NCBI GenBank assembly: GCA_022823725.1
Contig: JAJEHL010000028.1
Location: forward strand, 1-41,275
DNA from: Candidatus Latescibacterota bacterium
Lineage (GTDB): Bacteria; Latescibacterota; UBA2968
Direction: 5' to 3'
Length of the DNA: 41,275 nt
Shown here in pieces: positions 17,283-26,462 of this stretch; the stretch's first letter is position 1, and each line of letters begins with the position of its first letter. Made by a program: the position numbers and the translations under genes. The notes below the pieces were generated by a model. That model ran no database searches. It was given only the letters and a program-made list of their open reading frames with translations, and was not told the DNA's origin.

Positions 17283-19055
17283 TTATTTTGGTTCAACCAT
17301 CGCTTTGCGCTGGGCCGTAAGGTGGCGGTGTTTTTCCAGTGTGGTGCGCAGTTCGTCGGGAGAAAGCGGTTGGCGCAATTGCTTTTCGATTCGTTCGATT
17401 TCGCTTTCGAGACTTTTGAGCTGGAACTTGTGAATATAATCTTGAATGGGAACATCGATATTGGGGTTCTCAATGCCAATTTCCAGAGATAGGTGGGTCA
17501 ATATGCGGCACAAGCGATCATCGTTGCACTGATTGATGAGGTGTGCGATCTCGATGGGTTGTTTCTCCTGTCGGTTGCGGGCAATCATGGTGGCGATTTG
17601 CCGGTAGGTACTATTTGTAAAATTGTCGGGAGAAATTTGATTGAATACGCTATCGGCAGTTTCGGGGTGCTGCATCAGGAAGGTGAGCAATTCGCGCTCG
17701 GAACGGGGCCGCGTATCATAAGGTTCTGGTTCTGGTTGTCCATTTTGCGGTCTTGTGGTGCGGCGCTGTGTTTGGGAAATGCTGATGAGGGTTTCTTCAT
17801 CTATCCCGATTTTTTCGGCGATGTCTTTGATGACAAGTTGTTTGAGCGCGTTGTCTTTGATGCGTCCAACGAGTTCGGCCAATGCGTTTGCTGTTCGGGT
17901 TTTGCCATCTATGGTTGAGAGGTCGTCGCGTTGGGCAAATTGTTCCATGAGAAAGTCGATGGCGGGTGCGGCGTTTTCGGTGAGGCGCAGAAGGCCATCG
18001 GATCCCTGGGCGCGCACGTAACTGTCGGGGTCGTGATTTTCGGGCAGGGTGACAACGCGGACTTCGAGGCCCACTTCAAAGAGCGATCCGATACCGCGCA
18101 TTGCAGCGGTTGCACCAGCGGTGTCGCCGTCAAAGATGAGTATGGTTTTGGGTGCGTAACGCCTGAGCAGGCGCGCCTGGTCGGTTGTGAGTGCTGTGCC
18201 AGAGGATGCGACCGCGTTTTCAATATTATATTGTGCAAGGGCAATGAGGTCCATATACCCTTCAACAACGAGTGCGACACCTGCATCGCGGATGGCATCT
18301 CTATTGCGCCACAAGCCGTACAGGGTGGCACTTTTGTTGTACACAGGGGTTTCCGGAGAGTTGATGTATTTGGCCTGTTCGTCGGGATCGAGGGCGCGCG
18401 CGCCAAAAGCGACGGGGCGACCTGTGGCGGCGTGTATGGGGAAGGTGATGCGATTGCGAAAGCGGTCGTAAAAACCGGTTCCTTTTTGGTTGGCTAAGAC
18501 GAGACCAGCGCGTTCGAGTATTTGCGGAGAGAATTTCCGACGGGTGGCAACTTGCAAGAAGCCATGCCACTGATCGGGCGCATAACCGAGAGAAAAGGCG
18601 TCGATTACGTCGCGGTTTATGCCTCGTTTTTCGAGGTATGCCATTGCATCTGCGGCTTTCTCGTCCTGTGTGAGCAGGTGATGAAAATATTTGACTGCGA
18701 GTTCATTGGCGCGATAGAGTTGGTCAAAGACTTCCTGCTGGTCCGGGTCTGCCGGCTTTGCATCGGGCAGGGCTATGCCCGCGCGGTCGGCGAGTTGGCG
18801 AACGGCTTCGATAAAGCTGATGTTTTCTATGTCGCGCAGAAATGTAAAGCTGTTGCCGCCCGCGCCGCAGGCGAAACACTTGTAGATTTGTTTTTCCTGC
18901 GAGACGTTTAGGGAGGGTGTGGAATCGTCGTGGAAGGGACACAGGCCGACAAAGCTTTTGCCCCGGCGGGTCAGCGCAACGTGATCGCCCACAACATCGA
19001 CAATGTCGATAGACAGGCGCACTTGATCGATGACAGTTTCTGGAATGCGCGGCAT
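17283..19055 (-). CDS. dnaG: DNA primase
   Basis: A 590-residue primase that makes RNA primers for replication. The N-terminal zinc-binding domain has Cys39-His42 and Cys60-Cys63 (LCPFHDDSTPSLN ... CFACGAGG). The RNA polymerase core follows. The Toprim segment has VVEGYMDLIAL and LIFDGDTAGATAA, with the metal-binding acidic residues. The C-terminal region (about 440-590) is the helical DnaB-interaction domain. The start at 19055 is supported by GGGAG upstream. It follows ispG at 53 bases on the same strand and ends shortly before the tRNA. Confidence 0.96.
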   Translation of the reverse strand: MPRIPETVIDQVRLSIDIVDVVGDHVALTRRGKSFVGLCPFHDDSTPSLNVSQEKQIYKCFACGAGGNSFTFLRDIENISFIEAVRQLADRAGIALPDAKPADPDQQEVFDQLYRANELAVKYFHHLLTQDEKAADAMAYLEKRGINRDVIDAFSLGYAPDQWHGFLQVATRRKFSPQILERAGLVLANQKGTGFYDRFRNRITFPIHAATGRPVAFGARALDPDEQAKYINSPETPVYNKSATLYGLWRNRDAIRDAGVALVVEGYMDLIALAQYNIENAVASSGTALTTDQARLLRRYAPKTILIFDGDTAGATAAMRGIGSLFEVGLEVRVVTLPENHDPDSYVRAQGSDGLLRLTENAAPAIDFLMEQFAQRDDLSTIDGKTRTANALAELVGRIKDNALKQLVIKDIAEKIGIDEETLISISQTQRRTTRPQNGQPEPEPYDTRPRSERELLTFLMQHPETADSVFNQISPDNFTNSTYRQIATMIARNRQEKQPIEIAHLINQCNDDRLCRILTHLSLEIGIENPNIDVPIQDYIHKFQLKSLESEIERIEKQLRQPLSPDELRTTLEKHRHLTAQRKAMVEPK

Positions 19056-19108
19056 GTAAGGAACTCCCTGGGGAGAGGGAGGTTGTAAATAGGTGTTGTA
19101 AGCTAATT

Positions 19109-21058
19109 TTAAGCTGGATCAACCCAGTCGCCACTGGCGCGTATCAGGTCAATCAGTTCGTCAACCGCGCCTTCTGTGGGGATATTGCGTTTGACGATGT
19201 CTTTGCCCTTGTAGAGCGTGATTTTGCCAGGCCCACTGCCTACATAACCGTAATCGGCGTCGGCCATTTCACCGGGACCGTTGACAATGCAGCCCATAAT
19301 GCCAATTTTGACGCCTTTGAGGTGGTTGGTGTGGCTTCGAATCAGGGCGGTGGTTTCCTGCAGGTCAAACAGGGTGCGCCCGCACGAAGGACAGGATATG
19401 TATTCGGTTTTGGATATGCGGATGCGCGTGGCTTGCAAGATGCCGAAGGCCGTGCGGGTGAGGGTGTGATGGTCTATTTGATCGGATGCTTCGAGCCACA
19501 GGCCATCGCCGAGGCCATCGACGAGTAGTCCGCCGCAGTCGGTGGCGGCGTAGAGCATGAAGGCATCATTGGCTGAGTACATTGTTGCGCCATACGTTCG
19601 GCGGATGACTACGGGTATGTCGCAATGCCAATCTGCAAGCAGACAGAATGCGCGGCGCAGTTCGGGCATGGCGTGGGTGTTGTGGGTTTGCAGGACGAGT
19701 ACTGCACGGGGGTCGTCCTCGACCGCGCGGATAAGCGGTTCGTCGAGTTCGTCGAGTTCGGCACATATAAAGGCGATGCGGTCGGCTGTGTGATTGGATT
19801 GCAGGTATGCCGTTGCAGAAAAAATCGGGTATGCGGTGGAGGCGGGCGACCAGGCCCGGGCATTTTGAATGACGCCGAGTGTGCCCGGCAGTTCAAAATT
19901 GAGGGTGCGATTGCCAGCGTAGATAAAGTCAACGGCCATGTCGGCAATGTGCCATTTGTCGAGCACCGCATCGTACGTATAGCCAAAGGGATGCAGGGAT
20001 TCGGGGGTGATGGTGCCCTGTGGGGTGGCGATGACGATTGGGACACTCGGTTTGCCGATTTTTTCAACCTGTCGCGTTTTGCGACGCGTGTACGAAAATG
20101 GATCGATATGGGATGTTTGAATTTCCGGTATTGGCGCGTGATCGCTGCGGTTGCGATAGCGGGCGACCAGTGTTTGCGCCACGGGGATTTCAGCTTCGGG
20201 TTCTTCTGTGAGGGAGACGCGAATGGTATCGCCCAGGCCGTCTTCGAGCAGCGCGCCTATGCCCACGGCCGATTTGATGCGCCCGTCTTCGCCATCGCCG
20301 GCTTCTGTGACGCCCAGATGGAGCGGATAGTTCATGTCTTCGGCCATCATTTTGTGTACGAGGAGACGGTAGGCTTGAACCATAATTTGCGGATTGCTGG
20401 CTTTCATGGAAAATACGATGTCGTGATAGTCGAGGTCACTGCATATTCGCGCAAATTCGAGTGCGGATTCGACCATGCCGAGCGGGGTGTCGCCAAACCT
20501 GCTCATAATGCGGTCTGAGAGCGATCCGTGGTTGGTGCCAATCCGCATGGCTGTGCCGTATTCTTTGCAAATTTTGACCAGTGGTGTGAATCTGTCGCGG
20601 ATGCGCTGCAATTCTTCGGCGTATTGGGCATCGGTGTATTCGATGATCTGGAATTTTTTTTTGTCGGCATAATTGCCGGGGTTCACGCGCACTTTTTCCA
20701 CAATTCGAGCGGCGATTTCCGCGGCATTGGGGGTGTAGTGAATATCGGCTACTAATGGGGTGTGGTAGCCCGCGGCTCTGAGTTTTTTTTGGATGTTTTC
20801 GAGGTTGCGGGCTTCGTTCTGGCTGGGTGCTGTTATGCGCACGTATTCACATCCGGCGCGGATCATGCGGATGGACTGGGCGACCGTGCCATCGGTGTCC
20901 ATGGTATCGGTTGTGGTCATCGACTGCACGCGGATGGGATTGTCGCCGCCGAGTGGCACACCCCCGATATCGACTTCGCGGGTTTTGAAGCGGGCGTATT
21001 CCGTGAGCGAATTGCAGTATTTGCCCTGGGAAACGAGCAGGTCACTGGTTATGGACAT
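19109..21058 (-). CDS. ispG: HMBPP synthase IspG (GcpE), long form
   Basis: A 649-residue IspG, which converts methylerythritol cyclodiphosphate to HMBPP in the MEP isoprenoid pathway. The N-terminal TIM barrel starts with the VQSMTTTDTMDTDGT block. A central insert of about 250 residues separates it from the [4Fe-4S] domain. That domain holds Cys556 and Cys559 (CPSCGR), Cys590 (MGCIVNGPGE) and the conserved Glu. This long form is known from Bacteroidetes, Chlamydiae and plants, while proteobacterial IspG is about 370 residues. The ATG at 21058 is chosen because the barrel begins there. The 34-residue upstream extension is low-complexity basic sequence overlapping the cvpA gene end. Confidence 0.95.
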   Translation of the reverse strand: MSITSDLLVSQGKYCNSLTEYARFKTREVDIGGVPLGGDNPIRVQSMTTTDTMDTDGTVAQSIRMIRAGCEYVRITAPSQNEARNLENIQKKLRAAGYHTPLVADIHYTPNAAEIAARIVEKVRVNPGNYADKKKFQIIEYTDAQYAEELQRIRDRFTPLVKICKEYGTAMRIGTNHGSLSDRIMSRFGDTPLGMVESALEFARICSDLDYHDIVFSMKASNPQIMVQAYRLLVHKMMAEDMNYPLHLGVTEAGDGEDGRIKSAVGIGALLEDGLGDTIRVSLTEEPEAEIPVAQTLVARYRNRSDHAPIPEIQTSHIDPFSYTRRKTRQVEKIGKPSVPIVIATPQGTITPESLHPFGYTYDAVLDKWHIADMAVDFIYAGNRTLNFELPGTLGVIQNARAWSPASTAYPIFSATAYLQSNHTADRIAFICAELDELDEPLIRAVEDDPRAVLVLQTHNTHAMPELRRAFCLLADWHCDIPVVIRRTYGATMYSANDAFMLYAATDCGGLLVDGLGDGLWLEASDQIDHHTLTRTAFGILQATRIRISKTEYISCPSCGRTLFDLQETTALIRSHTNHLKGVKIGIMGCIVNGPGEMADADYGYVGSGPGKITLYKGKDIVKRNIPTEGAVDELIDLIRASGDWVDPA

Positions 21059-21143
21059 TGGTCGTCTCTGTGGATGGTGGATAGTAGGGGCGCGTTTTGG
21101 GCGATGTACAACTGGTCGTTTCTCAGACCAGTTCGACCCGCAC

Positions 21144-21752
21144 CTACTTAGATTCCTCAATTATTTCGTTGATTTTTTTTCGCGCTTTACCGGCTTCTTC
21201 GTTGAGCTTTTCAATCAGAGGAGGCTTTTTTTCGATCTGAATGCCCAATGTTTCGAGCAGGGTTTTTACGTTGGGAAACATGGCCTGTACACCATCGGCA
21301 ATCACCCGAGCGGATTTTTGAAGCGGTGCGCCTAAGGTAGAATTGTCGATGAGTTCGGGCACGCGGCTGTGGATGGGCTTTGCATGTAAAAATATGGCGA
21401 TCAGACCCAAAATCAATGCGCCTTGAGCCAGCCCCAGAGCAATGCCACCAAATGCGTCAATCGCGCCGAGGGGCGAGGCACGCAACATTCCGTGAAGGGT
21501 GCGCCCGAGAAAATAGCAGGCGGCCAGGACACCAGCAAATGCCACAAAGAACCCGATTAGTGCGGTGCCCGTGCCGAGGTCTTCTGTTGTATCGAACAAA
21601 GCGCGCGCAGTCGTTTCGCCATAAGTGAGGGCAGAACCATAAGCCAATATCACGCTGAGTAGCATGATGAGGCTTTGTACCAGCCCAATTTGCCATCCTT
21701 TTCGAGCGAACCAGAAGAGGCCGAGGGCAAAAATGAGATCGACGATGTTCAT
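21144..21752 (-). CDS. CvpA-family membrane protein
   Basis: A 202-residue inner-membrane protein. About four hydrophobic helices are visible: residues 3-15, 24-45, 62-85 and 100-122. They are followed by a soluble tail rich in Lys and Glu, predicted coiled-coil near the end (IEKLNEEAGKARKKINEIIEE). The N-terminus NIVDLIFALGLFWFARKGWQIG is typical of CvpA (colicin V production family), a family of unclear molecular function. It is upstream of ispG on the same strand with an 85-base gap, and downstream of the rpsU terminator. Confidence 0.85.
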   Translation of the reverse strand: MNIVDLIFALGLFWFARKGWQIGLVQSLIMLLSVILAYGSALTYGETTARALFDTTEDLGTGTALIGFFVAFAGVLAACYFLGRTLHGMLRASPLGAIDAFGGIALGLAQGALILGLIAIFLHAKPIHSRVPELIDNSTLGAPLQKSARVIADGVQAMFPNVKTLLETLGIQIEKKPPLIEKLNEEAGKARKKINEIIEESK

Positions 21753-21775
21753 TTGAAGTGCAAAATGGGAATGGG

Positions 21776-21814
21776 TAAAAAAAAAGCGATAGCCACCCTG
21801 AGTGATTATCGCTT
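21776..21814 (-). terminator. Terminator of rpsU
   Basis: On the minus strand AAGCGATA (21807-21814) pairs with TATCGCTT (21784-21791), extended by an inner GTG/CAC pairing, and is followed by a run of eight T. Confidence 0.85.
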
Positions 21815-21836
21815 AATTCGAATAATTGCGAAAGAC

Positions 21837-22034
21837 TTAGCGGGTGTATTGCTGGTCCAATTTGATCCGCTTGCGTCTTGCTGCGGCAATTTTGCGTTTC
21901 CGACGTTCACTCGGTTTTTCAAAGTGCTGATTTTTCTTCATGTCGGAAATAACACCGGCTTTTTCGCAGGCCTTTTTGAACCGTTTGAGTGCTCTTTCGA
22001 ACGGCTCGTCGTCGCGTACGAGGACACCAGGCAT
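21837..22034 (-). CDS. rpsU: 30S ribosomal protein S21
   Basis: A 65-residue basic protein. MPGVLVRDDEPFERALKRFKK matches the S21 N-terminus, and the C-terminal half (KPSERRKRKIAAARRKRIK) is the usual basic helix. S21 sits near the anti-Shine-Dalgarno end of 16S rRNA in the small subunit. The start is ATG 22034, since the longer frame to 22148 adds non-family residues. GGGGTGAG lies upstream. It is a single-gene unit with its own promoter and terminator. Confidence 0.95.
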   Translation of the reverse strand: MPGVLVRDDEPFERALKRFKKACEKAGVISDMKKNQHFEKPSERRKRKIAAARRKRIKLDQQYTR

Positions 22035-22093
22035 GCCGGGACTCACCCCTTTCTTTGGAGAATGTGATGAATAACCAAAACGAATTTCAATAT

Positions 22094-22122
22094 AACATAT
22101 AAAATGTCCCGCACTTTTGCAA
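22094..22122 (-). promoter_or_regulatory. Candidate rpsU promoter
   Basis: On the minus strand TTGCAA (22117-22122), a 17-base spacer and TATGTT (22094-22099), about 60 bases before the rpsU ATG. Confidence 0.5.
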
Positions 22123-22298
22123 CCCGTTTTTCCCATGTCGCCCAACACAGAATTTGCTCGCTACAAAAAACGTCTTTGTTCATTTCAAGGTGTTTTTTAT
22201 TTTTATTGCGGGATTGTGGGACTTTGGTTTTGAATGGGAACTCAAAAAAGTGTCGGGCGTTTTGGATGAGGAGGAAGGAACACCAGACGGAGGGGTGA

Positions 22299-23579
22299 AT
22301 GCAGTTAATAAATAAAAATAAGATCGATGACAGGCGCAAGGATTTACACTTACGCCTGTCCAGCCAGAGTTTTTTAACGGCTTATTTTTTTCTTTTGGCG
22401 GTTATTATTGTCGCCGCTTTTCTCATTTATACCCAGCTTTACGTGGTGCAACCCATGCGGCAAGAAGCCAGGCGTATGGGAGAGTTCTACGCTTTTATGC
22501 ACAGTGTGGTTACGTTGGATACAATTGAGGTTAAGGGATTTTATAAGGATGTCATTTATCACACGGTCCAGAATCCCAATTTTCCAGTCGTAATCACAGA
22601 TGAACAGGGTCTTCCCCGATACTGGAAAGCGATTGATATTCCCCCCTTTGGTGACCGTACCCCCGAAACTCTGGGCAAAGTGATGGATAAGGCTTACGCG
22701 CTCGATGGGGAAAAAGATCCGTTGCCGTTTGAATGGCCCGTCAACAAGGATCCGGAAATCTGGCATTTACACTGGGGTGCGTCCGCGCTGGAGAAGCGTT
22801 TGAATTGGTTGCCCTGGGTTGCTTTTGGGGTGACAATTTTATTTACTGGGGGTGGATATCTCGGATTTCGGTATATTAAGAACAGAGAACAGAGATCTAT
22901 CTGGGTGGGGATGGCTCGGGAAACAGCCCATCAGTTGGGAACGCCGCTGTCTTCGCTGTACGGTTGGTTGGCATTGTTGAAGGACGAGTTGGATGCAGGG
23001 GGTGATAGAGAGGGCAGTCAGAGGCTAAAAAATATCCTGGGAGAAATGGATCGGGATACGAGTCGGTTGGACAAGATCGCTTCTCGCTTTAGCCTGATTG
23101 GTTCCACGCCCGAATTGCGATTGGATCAAGTGCGCGATGTGGTGGCTGAGACAGCGGGTTATCTGCGCGCGCGCTTGCCGGAGAACGTGCAAATTGTAGA
23201 GGAATTAGACGATGTGCCGGTTGTTCCGATCAATCGGGAACTTTTGGGATGGGCGTTTGAAAATCTTTTCAGGAATGCCGCCGATGCGATGGAGGGGAGA
23301 GGGGGCCGCATTGATGTATCGTCGCGCCTGGAGGAACATCGGGTGGTTATTGAAGTGCGCGATACGGGAAAGGGCATGCCTTCGCATATGTTTAAGCAAG
23401 TTTTTTTGCCGGGTACCAGCACTAAGAAACGCGGGTGGGGACTCGGCCTGGCATTTGTGAAACGCATTGTGGAAGACTATCACAGTGGAAAAGTATATAT
23501 CAAAGAAAGTGTGCCAGATCGGGGTACGACATTTGTCGTCTTGCTGCCTTTGTCTCCGGCAGATTTAGATGACTCCTAA
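22299..23579 (+). CDS. PorY-like sensor histidine kinase
   Basis: A 426-residue membrane kinase. Membrane helices lie at about 25-48 and 170-192, flanking a periplasmic sensor of about 120 residues. The H-box ETAHQLGTPLSSL contains the phospho-acceptor His211. The ATPase domain has the N-box ENLFRNAADAM (321-331), G1 DTGKGM (355-360) and G2 GWGLGLAFVKRI (379-390). The AHQLGTPLSSL form of the H-box is the one I associate with PorY-type kinases of Bacteroidetes. GGAGGGG precedes the ATG. The next gene, 29 bases on, encodes the matching PorX-like regulator, so the two form a two-component system. Confidence 0.88.
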   Translation: MQLINKNKIDDRRKDLHLRLSSQSFLTAYFFLLAVIIVAAFLIYTQLYVVQPMRQEARRMGEFYAFMHSVVTLDTIEVKGFYKDVIYHTVQNPNFPVVITDEQGLPRYWKAIDIPPFGDRTPETLGKVMDKAYALDGEKDPLPFEWPVNKDPEIWHLHWGASALEKRLNWLPWVAFGVTILFTGGGYLGFRYIKNREQRSIWVGMARETAHQLGTPLSSLYGWLALLKDELDAGGDREGSQRLKNILGEMDRDTSRLDKIASRFSLIGSTPELRLDQVRDVVAETAGYLRARLPENVQIVEELDDVPVVPINRELLGWAFENLFRNAADAMEGRGGRIDVSSRLEEHRVVIEVRDTGKGMPSHMFKQVFLPGTSTKKRGWGLGLAFVKRIVEDYHSGKVYIKESVPDRGTTFVVLLPLSPADLDDS

Positions 23580-23608
23580 TCCTTTATCAATGAACAAAAG
23601 AGGTGCAT

Positions 23609-25177
23609 GTGAATCAAACACAAGAAGCCAAGCAGATTTTGTGGGCGGATGACGAGATCGATTTGTTGCGACCCCATCAAATTTTTCTCAAAGATCGGGG
23701 GTATGATATAACCCCTGTGACCAATGGCGACGATGCTATTGCCCTGGTTCAGAAGCGCGGATTTGATGCGGTATTGCTCGATGAGATGATGGCTGGACGA
23801 GATGGGTTGTCAACCCTGGCGGCGATTAAGGATATCAATCCGCATATTCCGGTTATTATGATTACGAAAAACGAAGAAGAGCGGTTGATGGAACAGGCTA
23901 TTGGACAGCGGATTGACGACTATTTGACCAAGCCCGTGAATCCGAGTCAGATTTTGCTGGCGTGCAAAAAATTGCTCGACGCACGTCAAATTCAAAAAGA
24001 CCGCATGGGTCTGGACTATGCGGCTGCATCCAACAGGTTGCGCGAATCTCTCATATTGGCGGAGTCCTGGCGAGATTGGATCGATCTTCATGTGCGCCTG
24101 TCCGAGTGGGATTTGGAATTGGACCGCTTTTACGATCCGGGCTTGCGCACCATGCACGACGATTTGCGCCGTGCATGCAATTTGGGGTTTGGCAAGTTTG
24201 TAGAGGACAATTACAGCCAATGGGTGCAAGATGAAGAGGATTCACCCACGCTTTCTGTGGATATTGTATCCGAATTTGTCGCGCCCTGTGTGCAAGATGG
24301 GCAACAGGTATTTTTTGTAGTGGTCGATTGTATGCGATTGGATCACTGGCTTGCCATTTTGCCGTTGTTGTCCGATATTTTTGATATTGAGCAACACTAC
24401 CATTACTCTATTTTGCCCACTGCGACGCCGTATTCTCGCAATGCCATTTTTAGCGGCCTTTTTCCCATTGATCTCGCGGTTTTGTATCCAGATGAGTGGC
24501 AGGTGGCGCGTGACGACGACATGAGTCGCAACCGACATGAACACCAATTGCTCGATCAACAACTCGCAGAAATTGATCCAGAATTGAATTTGGATACGCG
24601 CTATGTCAAAATACTGGATATTGCTGAGGGCAACCGGCTGGCGAAGAAGGTGCATTCGTACCGATCTTTTCCGCTTATGGCCGTTGTTGTCAATTTTTTG
24701 GATATGCTCACACATGGTCGTTCCGAATCCGAATTGTTGCAAGAAATGGCGCCCAATGAGTCTGCTTATCGGTCTTTGACGCGGTCCTGGTTCTCGCATT
24801 CTTCTCTTTTTGAGATGTTGCGCAAGCTGTCTGAGACCGATTCGACAGTGGTGTTGACGACAGATCACGGCTGTATGCTGAGTGCGCGGGCTTCTCTGGC
24901 TTATGGCAATCGGGATACTTCGACGGGGATTCGCTTCAAGTACGGCAAGAATTTGCGATGCGATAACCGCCACGCGATACATATTCGAGATCCCGAGGCT
25001 TTTGGGCTGCCGAGTGTGGGGCAAGGGACCAATTACATTATTTGTAGAGAAGATTACTTTTTTGTGTATCCCACCAATTTCAACGAGTACCAGGCCAAAT
25101 ACGCCAATAGTTTTCAACACGGGGGGATTTCTCTCGAAGAGTGTATTTTGCCGGTTGCTATTATGCGCGGGAAATAA
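23609..25177 (+). CDS. porX: PorX-like response regulator with PglZ domain
   Basis: A 522-residue two-domain regulator. The receiver domain (about 1-120) has acidic residues in WADDEID, the phospho-acceptor Asp58 in AVLLDEMM and the Lys in YLTKPVN. A helical linker follows. The PglZ alkaline-phosphatase-like domain (about 215-520) has Asp in VVVDCMRLDHW, Thr in LPTATPYSRNAIFSG and Asp-His in TTDHG, as in PorX, which in Bacteroidetes controls type IX secretion genes and cleaves nucleotide substrates. GTG 23609 is chosen over GTG 23603 because AGAGGT (23599-23604) overlaps the earlier one. Whether type IX secretion exists in this organism cannot be seen here. Confidence 0.88.
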   Translation: MNQTQEAKQILWADDEIDLLRPHQIFLKDRGYDITPVTNGDDAIALVQKRGFDAVLLDEMMAGRDGLSTLAAIKDINPHIPVIMITKNEEERLMEQAIGQRIDDYLTKPVNPSQILLACKKLLDARQIQKDRMGLDYAAASNRLRESLILAESWRDWIDLHVRLSEWDLELDRFYDPGLRTMHDDLRRACNLGFGKFVEDNYSQWVQDEEDSPTLSVDIVSEFVAPCVQDGQQVFFVVVDCMRLDHWLAILPLLSDIFDIEQHYHYSILPTATPYSRNAIFSGLFPIDLAVLYPDEWQVARDDDMSRNRHEHQLLDQQLAEIDPELNLDTRYVKILDIAEGNRLAKKVHSYRSFPLMAVVVNFLDMLTHGRSESELLQEMAPNESAYRSLTRSWFSHSSLFEMLRKLSETDSTVVLTTDHGCMLSARASLAYGNRDTSTGIRFKYGKNLRCDNRHAIHIRDPEAFGLPSVGQGTNYIICREDYFFVYPTNFNEYQAKYANSFQHGGISLEECILPVAIMRGK

Positions 25178-25186
25178 TCGGATACG

Positions 25187-25660
25187 ATGTCAAATAGAAA
25201 GATTACACGGGTGTCTTCGTCGCCTGATCAAACACATCGGTTTGGCCGCGATCTCGCGGCCCGGCTCAAGCCGGGCGATTGCGTTGCTCTTACAGGAGAT
25301 TTGGGTAGTGGTAAAACCTGTTTTGCACAGGGTATTTGCGCGGGCTTGAATGTGACCGATTATGTGACGAGTCCAACTTTTGTAATCGTCAATGAATATG
25401 CGGGGGTCTCGCCCGATGGAAAGCAGATGCCGGTGTATCATTTTGATCTTTATCGGTTGGGCAGTCCCGACGAACTCTATGAGATTGGGTGTGATGATTT
25501 ATTTTACGGCGAGGGTGTGTGTTTGATTGAGTGGGCAGATTTGGGGGGCGATTTGATTCCCGATCATGCTATTGATGTGCATTTTGCCCATGCGGGGGAG
25601 ATGGTTCGGAACCTGACGATCTCTACCAGGACGAGGTTGTACACCGCTTCAGAGGGGTGA
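25187..25660 (+). CDS. tsaE: tRNA threonylcarbamoyl-adenosine ATPase TsaE
   Basis: A 157-residue P-loop ATPase that drives the TsaB-TsaD-TsaE complex making t6A37 in ANN-decoding tRNAs. The Walker A motif GDLGSGKT is at about 37-44. SPTFVIVNEY carries the switch-like Thr, and HFDLYRL and IEWAD (Walker B-like) are diagnostic of the family. It starts 9 bases after the porX stop, so the housekeeping gene is embedded in the signalling operon. The C-terminal coding region contains one copy of a 20-bp repeat also found at the start of the next gene. Confidence 0.93.
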   Translation: MSNRKITRVSSSPDQTHRFGRDLAARLKPGDCVALTGDLGSGKTCFAQGICAGLNVTDYVTSPTFVIVNEYAGVSPDGKQMPVYHFDLYRLGSPDELYEIGCDDLFYGEGVCLIEWADLGGDLIPDHAIDVHFAHAGEMVRNLTISTRTRLYTASEG

Positions 25661-25661
25661 C

Positions 25662-26462
25662 GTGTTAAAAAAAAGATATAATTGCAGACCTTTTTGGGTT
25701 CGACCAGGACGAGATTGTACACTACTTGCCATGTGTGTTTACTTTATGGCGTTTGCACCGGTTTGGGCACAGCAAGACTCACAGCCGTTGCACCTGATTG
25801 AAAGCCCTACGGCGGGTTTGTTGCCCGCGCGCAGTTTGGGGTTGGATTTGCAGTTTTATGGCGGCGATGGAATTTTGGGCAATGTTTTGGTCGGCTTGTT
25901 TAGCCGAGGTATGGTTGGGGTGTCTTTTGGCGGCCAAAATCTGTTGGGCAATGGCGCGATGCACTGGAACCCACACATTGAGTTTTCAGCGCGTGTGCGG
26001 GTCATTGAAGAGGGGTATTCGATCCCCGGTCTGGCATTGGGCTATACCTCTCAGGGATATGGCGATTATGATGAGACCCTGAAGCGTTATGCCAGCAAGT
26101 CCAAAGGGCTATATCTCGTTGCCAGCAAAAATTTCAAGGTGCTGGTAGGCCAGTTGGGGATCCATCTCGGCGCGAGCCGAAGTTTTGAAGATGGCGATGG
26201 CGATGATGATTTCACGGGCTATATCGGGTTCGATATGGGACTTGCGAACAGGATTTCGGCCGTGGCGGAATACGATTTGAGATTGGACGACAACGACGAT
26301 AATTCTCCTATTTCGGGAAAGGGGCATCTCAATGCCGGCATTCGATGGGCAGTGTCGAATACATTTACTCTGGAATTTGATTTAAAAAATATCTTCAGCA
26401 GTGGCGCGCACAACCCACACCCGGACCGTGAAATCGGCATTGTGTATTTTGCCAGGTTTTAA
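25662..26462 (+). CDS. Predicted outer-membrane beta-barrel protein
   Basis: A 266-residue protein starting with GTG. Residues about 19-36 (CTLLAMCVYFMAFAPVWA) look like a signal peptide with cleavage before QQDSQ. The mature part has alternating hydrophobic strands rich in Gly and aromatic residues (LDLQFYGGDGILGNVLVG, IGFDMGLANRIS, AVAEYDLRLDDND) and ends in an aromatic (FARF), typical of outer-membrane barrels. It resembles YjbH-domain or DUF-type barrels but I cannot name the family. It is adjacent to tsaE (one-base gap) at the end of the PorXY-like operon, so it may be a regulated envelope component. Confidence 0.7.
   Translation: MLKKRYNCRPFWVRPGRDCTLLAMCVYFMAFAPVWAQQDSQPLHLIESPTAGLLPARSLGLDLQFYGGDGILGNVLVGLFSRGMVGVSFGGQNLLGNGAMHWNPHIEFSARVRVIEEGYSIPGLALGYTSQGYGDYDETLKRYASKSKGLYLVASKNFKVLVGQLGIHLGASRSFEDGDGDDDFTGYIGFDMGLANRISAVAEYDLRLDDNDDNSPISGKGHLNAGIRWAVSNTFTLEFDLKNIFSSGAHNPHPDREIGIVYFARF

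Follow-up and report, generated by a model that had tools for sequence, protein, structure and literature searches.

The stretch of DNA analysed here, called the window and 41,275 nucleotides long in full, comes from Candidatus Latescibacterota bacterium (assembly GCA_022823725.1, contig JAJEHL010000028.1, our C44), a genome of 5.34 Mb that is 98% complete, and we discuss in it a locus at 22299-26462 whose first two genes resemble porY and porX, the sensor kinase and the response regulator of the type IX secretion system (T9SS) of Bacteroidota. On the whole, the locus consists of four tightly spaced genes on the + strand, all of them open reading frames (ORFs). They are a PorY-type sensor histidine kinase of 426 aa (22299..23579), recognised by Pfam, its H-box and its transmembrane (TM) layout, a PorX response regulator of 524 aa (23603..25177) made of a receiver, a linker and a PglZ alkaline-phosphatase-like domain, tsaE (25187..25660, 157 aa), encoding the ATPase of the t6A tRNA-modification complex, and a small predicted outer-membrane beta-barrel of 266 aa with a hydrophobic N-terminus (25662..26462). 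The intergenic gaps are 23, 9 and 1 nt; for PorX, translation could equally well start at the GTG at position 23609, which closely follows AGAGGTG. The nearest long ORFs on both sides are on the - strand. The original prediction had described these four genes at this place and on this strand, and the H-box AHQLGTPLSSL in the kinase; ORFs together with Pfam and NCBIfam confirm the former, and the latter is present exactly as described. It had also taken the genes as one operon. Gaps, strand and conserved order agree with this, while promoter-like and terminator-like sites occur at chance level in our scans (8 against 5.8 ± 2.4, and 7 against 5.9 ± 2.6, in shuffles), so the operon rests on spacing, strand and conservation and not on a mapped transcript. 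The placement outside Bacteroidetes is right, as the closest named relatives include Candidatus Latescibacterota metagenome-assembled genomes (MAGs) with 96-100% identity, the 100% match to PorX spanning residues 1-447.

PorX is identified by the NCBIfam equivalog model T9SS_RR_PorX, whose cut-off is 300; the match over residues 11-524 scores 654.7 bits (E 1e-196) and lies far outside what chance would give. It has the Pfam domains of PorX, Response_reg at 23636..23962 (residues 12-120, E 5.9e-23) and the core of PglZ at 24305..24877 (residues 235-425, E 2.1e-16), the latter being the sole PglZ match reported in the whole genome. Five solved full-length structures, 7pv7, 7pvk, 8p6f, 8ted and 8thp, align with it at 437-450 bits; we take them to be PorX, their depositors' titles saying response regulator. 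The PorX-type solved chains are alignable over residues 11-523, and the identity to a Prevotella PorX is 38.8% with 98% coverage. BREX_PglZ_3 also matches, at 99.6 bits, far below its cut-off of 250. Residues of the Flavobacterium johnsoniae protein (PorXFj), as given in excerpts of PMC10951265, were mapped by hand via the structure alignment, with the chain numbering assumed to be that of the paper plus 3. The receiver pocket D17, E18, D60, T88 and K110 corresponds to D11, E12, D54, T82 and K104 of PorXFj, the phospho-acceptor D60 being encoded at 23780-23782, and the zinc and catalytic residues D242, T275, D367, H371, D421, H422 and H506 correspond to D237, T271, D360, H364, D414, H415 and H499. 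All twelve are invariant in an alignment of 11 sequences from Latescibacterota. By profile, alignment and active sites, the window protein is a PorX orthologue.

The kinase matches Pfam HATPase_c (E 1.1e-19), and HisKA at 25.1 bits, slightly below the cut-off of 26.9. Its first TM segment (about 24-45) is clear by hydropathy (2.8), and the likely second one (about 169-191) is weak in hydropathy (1.29) but lies inside a long model helix, 171-232. They enclose a periplasmic loop, alpha/beta in type and about 120 aa long, and the phospho-acceptor H211 sits in RETAHQLGTPLSSL. The AlphaFold2 model, with a predicted local distance difference test (pLDDT) of 80.6 and a predicted template modelling score of 0.55, has the alpha/beta loop and the long helix entering the kinase core, in a fold that resembles ordinary kinases in a structure search. 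For Porphyromonas gingivalis PorY, excerpts of PMC5005315 give TM segments at 14-36 and 149-173, a loop of about 115 aa and H193; the window kinase is alike in having two TM segments, a periplasmic loop of similar length and the histidine about 20 residues past the second segment. A single plasmid-collection record matches the window kinase at E<=1e-20, that of a Parabacteroides distasonis kinase with 34.8% identity over 90% in this search and 34.7% over 392 columns of an alignment, which shares the layout and the H-box type, with KETAHQLGTPISSL, and is probably the PorY of that species. Its gene precedes DUF177, rpmF, fabH and era; PorX is not annotated in the 4.3 kb there, a stretch that begins just upstream of the kinase. 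The 25 best of 78 NCBIfam matches to the window kinase are other kinases, all well below their cut-offs, with no PorY model among these 25. As judged from the PorY profile and the trees below, the window kinase groups with PorY, apart from unrelated look-alikes.

For the spread of the pair, we use 64 Latescibacterota genomes including the own one, with 14 control genomes, then the best 80 loci of one PorX scan in named MAGs, and the 30 best-scoring of 155 PorX loci in Bacteroidota with 1.5-kb flanks. PorX is above cut-off in 59 of the 64 phylum genomes and in none of the controls; the phylum genomes without it (G011, G013, G015, G039 and G061) are 57, 80, 61, 73 and 96% complete, respectively. 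In the phylum to which G109, a MAG labelled Bacteroidetes, belongs, it is also above cut-off in 155 of 198 genomes. PorY adjoins PorX upstream in all 30 best-scoring loci from the phylum genomes and lies at most 600 bp upstream in 45 of 76 named-MAG loci with enough upstream sequence, two counts that are not independent since some loci come from the same or nearly the same genomes, as equal scores tell. By label, adjacent PorY is found in 12 of 13 Latescibacterota, 14 of 15 Zixibacteria and 4 of 4 Eisenbacteria loci, that is, in three named phyla, in 8 of 8 loci labelled Gemmatimonadota and in 7 of 14 without phylum label, while it is absent in Bacteroidota (0/3), Ignavibacteriota (0/4), Calditrichota (0/5), KSB1 (0/8) and LCP-89 (0/2). 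None of the 30 best-scoring Bacteroidota loci has PorY within its flanks, and both genes are called orphans in excerpts of PMC4800418 and PMC11320123, in accordance with the earlier statement that they are usually unlinked in Bacteroidetes. Among the Gemmatimonadota labels, L055 has a PorX 98% identical to that of the window, and L052, L056, L057, L061, L062 and L069 have locus scores equal or nearly equal to Latescibacterota loci; these seven are probably mislabelled MAGs. The eighth, L091, groups with an Eisenbacteria row on the PorX tree.

Where PorY is not adjacent, it was sought genome-wide in 26 of the 31 named MAGs (L098, L099, L114, L119 and L120 were left out). A full-length orthologue is found elsewhere in the genome in 19 of the 26, with 431-513 bits to the PorY profile, and two others have only a fragment (201 and 110 bits). 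The second-best kinases reach at most 121 bits in the 26 MAGs, and the orthologue leads by about 310 bits or more in the 19.

The unrooted PorX tree contains 69 of 141 extracted sequences, hand-picked to thin near-copies, and the first PorY tree contains 64 PorY rows and 9 outgroup rows. A careful PorY tree omits L006, L014, L091, L110, L096, L097, L116, L102, L100 and L111, besides five soluble kinases (described below) and five of the nine outgroup kinases. The PorX and PorY trees agree and divide by linkage. Both window proteins take their place among PorX and PorY, away from unrelated receiver-PglZ proteins and NtrY-like kinases, and the assignment made in the original prediction stands. 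On the PorX tree, the linked rows form one clan (100) with the unlinked L071 nested within it, inside Latescibacterota, and linkage takes two changes, one on the branch that divides this clan from all other rows and one, a separation, in L071. Distances among PorX and PorY correlate with r 0.875 (59 pairs, 0 of 2000 permutations), or 0.435 over 64 pairs with the soluble kinases included; this indicates long co-inheritance and not binding, since vertical inheritance alone gives such a correlation.

Whether linkage is ancestral, as the original prediction had suggested, depends on the root. In the PorY tree rooted on other kinases, whose outgroup branches are long, the 17 remaining unlinked rows form one clade (99/98), and this clade sits inside the linked rows through a 97/80 branch, which favours ancestral linkage. 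The alternative is that the two genes were apart in the ancestor of the Fibrobacteres-Chlorobi-Bacteroidetes (FCB) group and joined once, before Latescibacterota, Zixibacteria and Eisenbacteria split. It agrees with the single linked clan on the unrooted PorX tree, and the PorY tree with the linked rows as one clade, although 5.3 log-units worse, is not rejected by the approximately unbiased test (p 0.065 with L071 counted as linked; a p of 0.001 with L071 outside the linked group was not used). When the PorX tree is rooted on a single PglZ protein from an archaeon (Halorarius), the root also falls among unlinked rows, those of KSB1 and Calditrichota. However, the outgroup branch there amounts to 10 changes per column and the nearby supports are 68-69, and we regard this root as uninformative. 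Overall, we somewhat favour ancestral linkage on the trees, and consider a later joining to be a serious possibility, though the less probable one; of the earlier wording, the linked orthologues stand, and the word ancestral is kept with this reservation.

The genome of the window also has core genes of type IX secretion. SprA (TIGR04189) is found with 500 bits, or 634 with neighbouring pieces, against a cut-off of 200; the PorV family (NF033709) has 18 matches, the best with 231.6 bits against 90; and TIGR04183 sorting domains have 14 matches at E<=10, 11 of them above cut-off. The genes next to the best PorV encode, among others, a 999-aa protein with a sorting domain, and there is no full PorU-like match among them. 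In the phylum, SprA is above cut-off in 61 and the PorV family in all of the 64 genomes, both in none of the 14 controls, and SprA is above cut-off in 46 of the 50 PorX-bearing named MAGs tested out of the 80. PorV-family matches number 13-29 within the own genus (18 in the own genome) and 4-19 elsewhere in the phylum, possibly an expansion of cargo shuttles. The genome-wide check that had been proposed for type IX components gives SprA, PorV and sorting domains, but PorU stays below cut-off, as detailed below. The original prediction had named, as its own refutation, unrelated placement of both proteins together with a genome free of type IX genes; the trees and these matches do not refute it.

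We give roughly a three-in-four probability to the reading that the locus encodes an orthologous and linked PorXY two-component system, in Latescibacterota with core type IX genes, that acts on the type IX system. The mechanism would be as follows. PorY in the inner membrane would sense through its small periplasmic loop and autophosphorylate on H211, the phosphate would pass to D60 of PorX, and phosphorylated PorX would dimerise. The output may then tune the type IX system (SprA, PorV and the sorting-domain cargo), either how it is expressed or how active it is, and would run through the PglZ domain, a zinc phosphodiesterase, through a partner protein or through both. Phosphotransfer, phosphodiesterase activity and control of secretion are in this scheme modelled on work in P. 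gingivalis and F. johnsoniae.

Several results weigh against this reading. PorU in the own genome has a best score of 255.7 against 420 bits, in a 1895-aa frame, and it is above cut-off in 37 of the 64 phylum genomes (none of the 14 controls); all 22 genomes of families f1-f3, the own one included, are without it, and the 37 positive genomes fall among the 42 of families f4-f10. The GldL/GldM motor is not detected: the own genome has no TIGR03517 or TIGR03513 match at E<=0.01; GldM is above cut-off in none of the 64 phylum genomes (one weak match, 15 bits) and in none of 51 non-control genomes including the own one, with 2 of 3 Bacteroidota controls positive; GldL does not exceed its cut-off in any of the 26 Latescibacterota tested, where a single weak match has 17.4 bits, or in any of 40 other named MAGs, where a single weak match has 18.5 bits. 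In addition, 4 of the 50 PorX-bearing MAGs have no SprA above cut-off, where the MAGs may be incomplete, TIGR04183 is also above cut-off in 1 of the 14 controls, and 5 of the 26 searched PorX genomes have just a short soluble PorY-like kinase (224-284 aa, 160-198 bits). Finally, excerpts of PMC11320123 doubt PorY as the sole kinase of PorX, as T9SS function is abolished by porX deletion but not by porY deletion.

Some observations may be added on these points. The GldL profile is positive in 8 of 12 PorX-bearing Bacteroidota and in neither of 2 without a listed PorX match; the profiles were made for gliding Bacteroidota and miss 4 of 12 (GldL) and 1 of 3 (GldM) controls, so the absence of the motor is not proven. 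PorL, the published motor partner of PorX, presumably corresponds to what is named GldL in F. johnsoniae. The motor of that species drives the release of cargo from the translocon (excerpts of PMC10994853), and one would therefore expect here either a divergent motor that escaped detection or some other source of energy. In families f1-f3, with locus L197 (G000:C46:184040-188989) of the own genome, most genomes keep a long PorU-like frame of about 1800-2000 aa, and that of the own genome has a sorting-domain match at its end. We presume this frame to be C25-type. Farther away in the phylum, a PorU above cut-off and the long frame occur together in several genomes. The soluble-kinase loci (L149-L153) carry two LCP-89 labels, one Calditrichota label, one Zixibacteria label and one no label, and the PorX of these five genomes form a single clade on the PorX tree (support 100).

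A further reading is that PorXY was the original control of a motor-less type IX-like system (no GldLM), with a phosphodiesterase output and perhaps a nucleotide signal. The Bacteroidota side would then have acquired the motor and the binding to it later, and porX and porY would have become separated there. Without a motor in the older form, PorX could not have acted by CheY-like motor binding. We put this forward tentatively, as a rather unlikely reading so far. Unlikely as well, and slightly more so, is that a true PorXY pair has its output in another envelope or nucleotide-signalling process via the phosphodiesterase, the link to T9SS being a later specialisation of Bacteroidota. The undetected motor protein GldL and the completely conserved PglZ site fit with it, and so does the nearly constant neighbour of PorX: tsaE (Pfam TsaE, E 4.1e-40; TIGR00150, 115 bits against 60.1) is downstream of PorX in 30 of 30 phylum-genome loci, in 75 of the 77 named-MAG loci whose downstream sequence is 700 bp or longer (all but L083 and L085), in 26 of the 30 Bacteroidota loci (the exceptions, where it was not found, being L165, L168, L179 and L187) and likewise in the Prevotella record. 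An unrelated role would not, however, predict the presence of SprA together with PorX in nearly all the MAGs and phylum genomes counted above. Gene order that has become frozen next to an essential gene would account for the adjacency of porX and tsaE, and a link from the PorX phosphodiesterase to tRNA modification would be speculation. As a further observation, the gene after tsaE is TsaB-like and in the same orientation in 51 of 80 named-MAG loci, none of them labelled Latescibacterota; the order porX-tsaE-tsaB (L060-L127) recurs across several FCB phyla, a T9SS regulator thus heading a t6A gene pair.

The barrel had been suggested as a possible envelope target of the pair, and a regulated or sensing partner of PorXY is what it would then be. 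It has no match to Pfam at E<=0.01, NCBIfam at E<=0.1 or PHROGs families at E<=1, only Pfam YjbH being weakly seen with 12.6 bits (18.5 in a homologue; cut-off 24). The AlphaFold2 model is a beta-barrel of outer-membrane type (pLDDT 76.5), and its Protein Data Bank matches are generic barrels, the best being FapF (E 9.7e-7, template modelling score 0.43). A PorV- or PorP-like part of the T9SS was considered and rejected, as the T9SS translocon chains come late among the generic barrels, 8gl6_F at rank 26 (E 2.3e-4) and 6h3i_F at rank 36 (E 9.2e-4); these two chains we presume to be PorV, and their matches are not taken as evidence. A homologue is present in 23 of the 30 phylum-genome loci, some of the other seven being short of sequence. 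It is, however, matched only in Latescibacterota-type loci, with no match in loci labelled Zixibacteria, Eisenbacteria, KSB1, Calditrichota, Ignavibacteriota or Bacteroidota; Zixibacteria and Eisenbacteria loci keep PorY-PorX-TsaE without it, many having the TsaB-like gene instead, and the Latescibacterota loci L064, L071 and L072 show no match despite at least 3 kb of sequence. Such a partnership is accordingly very improbable, and the suggestion of an envelope target is not upheld. On the other side of the locus, the divergent neighbours on the - strand (17283-22148) include cvpA by Pfam Colicin_V and, as we presume from the translations, rpsU, an ispG-like long frame (683 aa) and dnaG.

The weakest alternative, a generic two-component system whose PglZ regulator is merely PorX-like as in BREX or archaeal PglZ proteins, has in its favour the BREX_PglZ_3 match and the foreign kinases among the best NCBIfam matches, and is practically dismissed by a PorX model at twice its cut-off, the near full-length alignment with solved PorX-type chains, the identity to Prevotella PorX and the large lead of the PorY orthologue in 19 genomes, while an unrelated receiver-PglZ protein or NtrY-like kinase is ruled out by the PorX model, the solved-chain alignment, the PorY profile and the trees.

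In the literature, T9SS is described as a Bacteroidota system as late as 2024 in excerpts of PMC10951265, PMC5005315, PMC10994853 and PMC7463736, the wider FCB superphylum is mentioned in those of PMC11320123, and Poribacteria were reported in 2014 to have sorting domains without structural Por genes (excerpt of PMC3909097). A tree study of T9SS components covers Bacteroidetes classes, and its excerpted text makes no mention of Latescibacter, Gemmatimonad or Fibrobacter (PMC7323717). Searches that mostly exclude subscription literature found no open-access paper joining type IX secretion with Latescibacter, or naming PorX with TsaE or yjeE, and no title on T9SS in these phyla is among the matches listed. 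Our results suggest for the PorXY control pair a wider distribution, and perhaps a greater age, than the literature gives it. The pairing of PorX with PorY is debated (excerpts of PMC11320123), and that the two genes are linked in three named phyla is evidence from genomes, independent of earlier work, of a cognate pair. Bacteria with PorXY and SprA, in Latescibacterota also PorV, in which the motor is undetected, offer a setting for roles of PorX beyond motor contact, and the common porX-tsaE neighbourhood is a further lead.

Compared with known systems, PorX shares its PglZ domain with the BREX PglZ proteins, and unlike them the window protein starts with a receiver domain and scores far under the BREX_PglZ_3 cut-off. 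The Latescibacterota differ from the T9SS of Bacteroidota in that GldL and GldM are undetected with the profiles used and PorU is below cut-off in all the 22 genomes of f1-f3, and they resemble it in the SprA translocon, the PorV family and the TIGR04183 cargo domains. With respect to PorX/PorY of P. gingivalis (PGN_1019/PGN_2001) and PorX of F. johnsoniae, the differences are the other phylum, the adjacent genes, the undetected GldL/GldM and the own-genome PorU below cut-off, while the domains, the catalytic residues, the layout of the kinase and the co-occurrence with SprA, PorV and sorting domains are alike.

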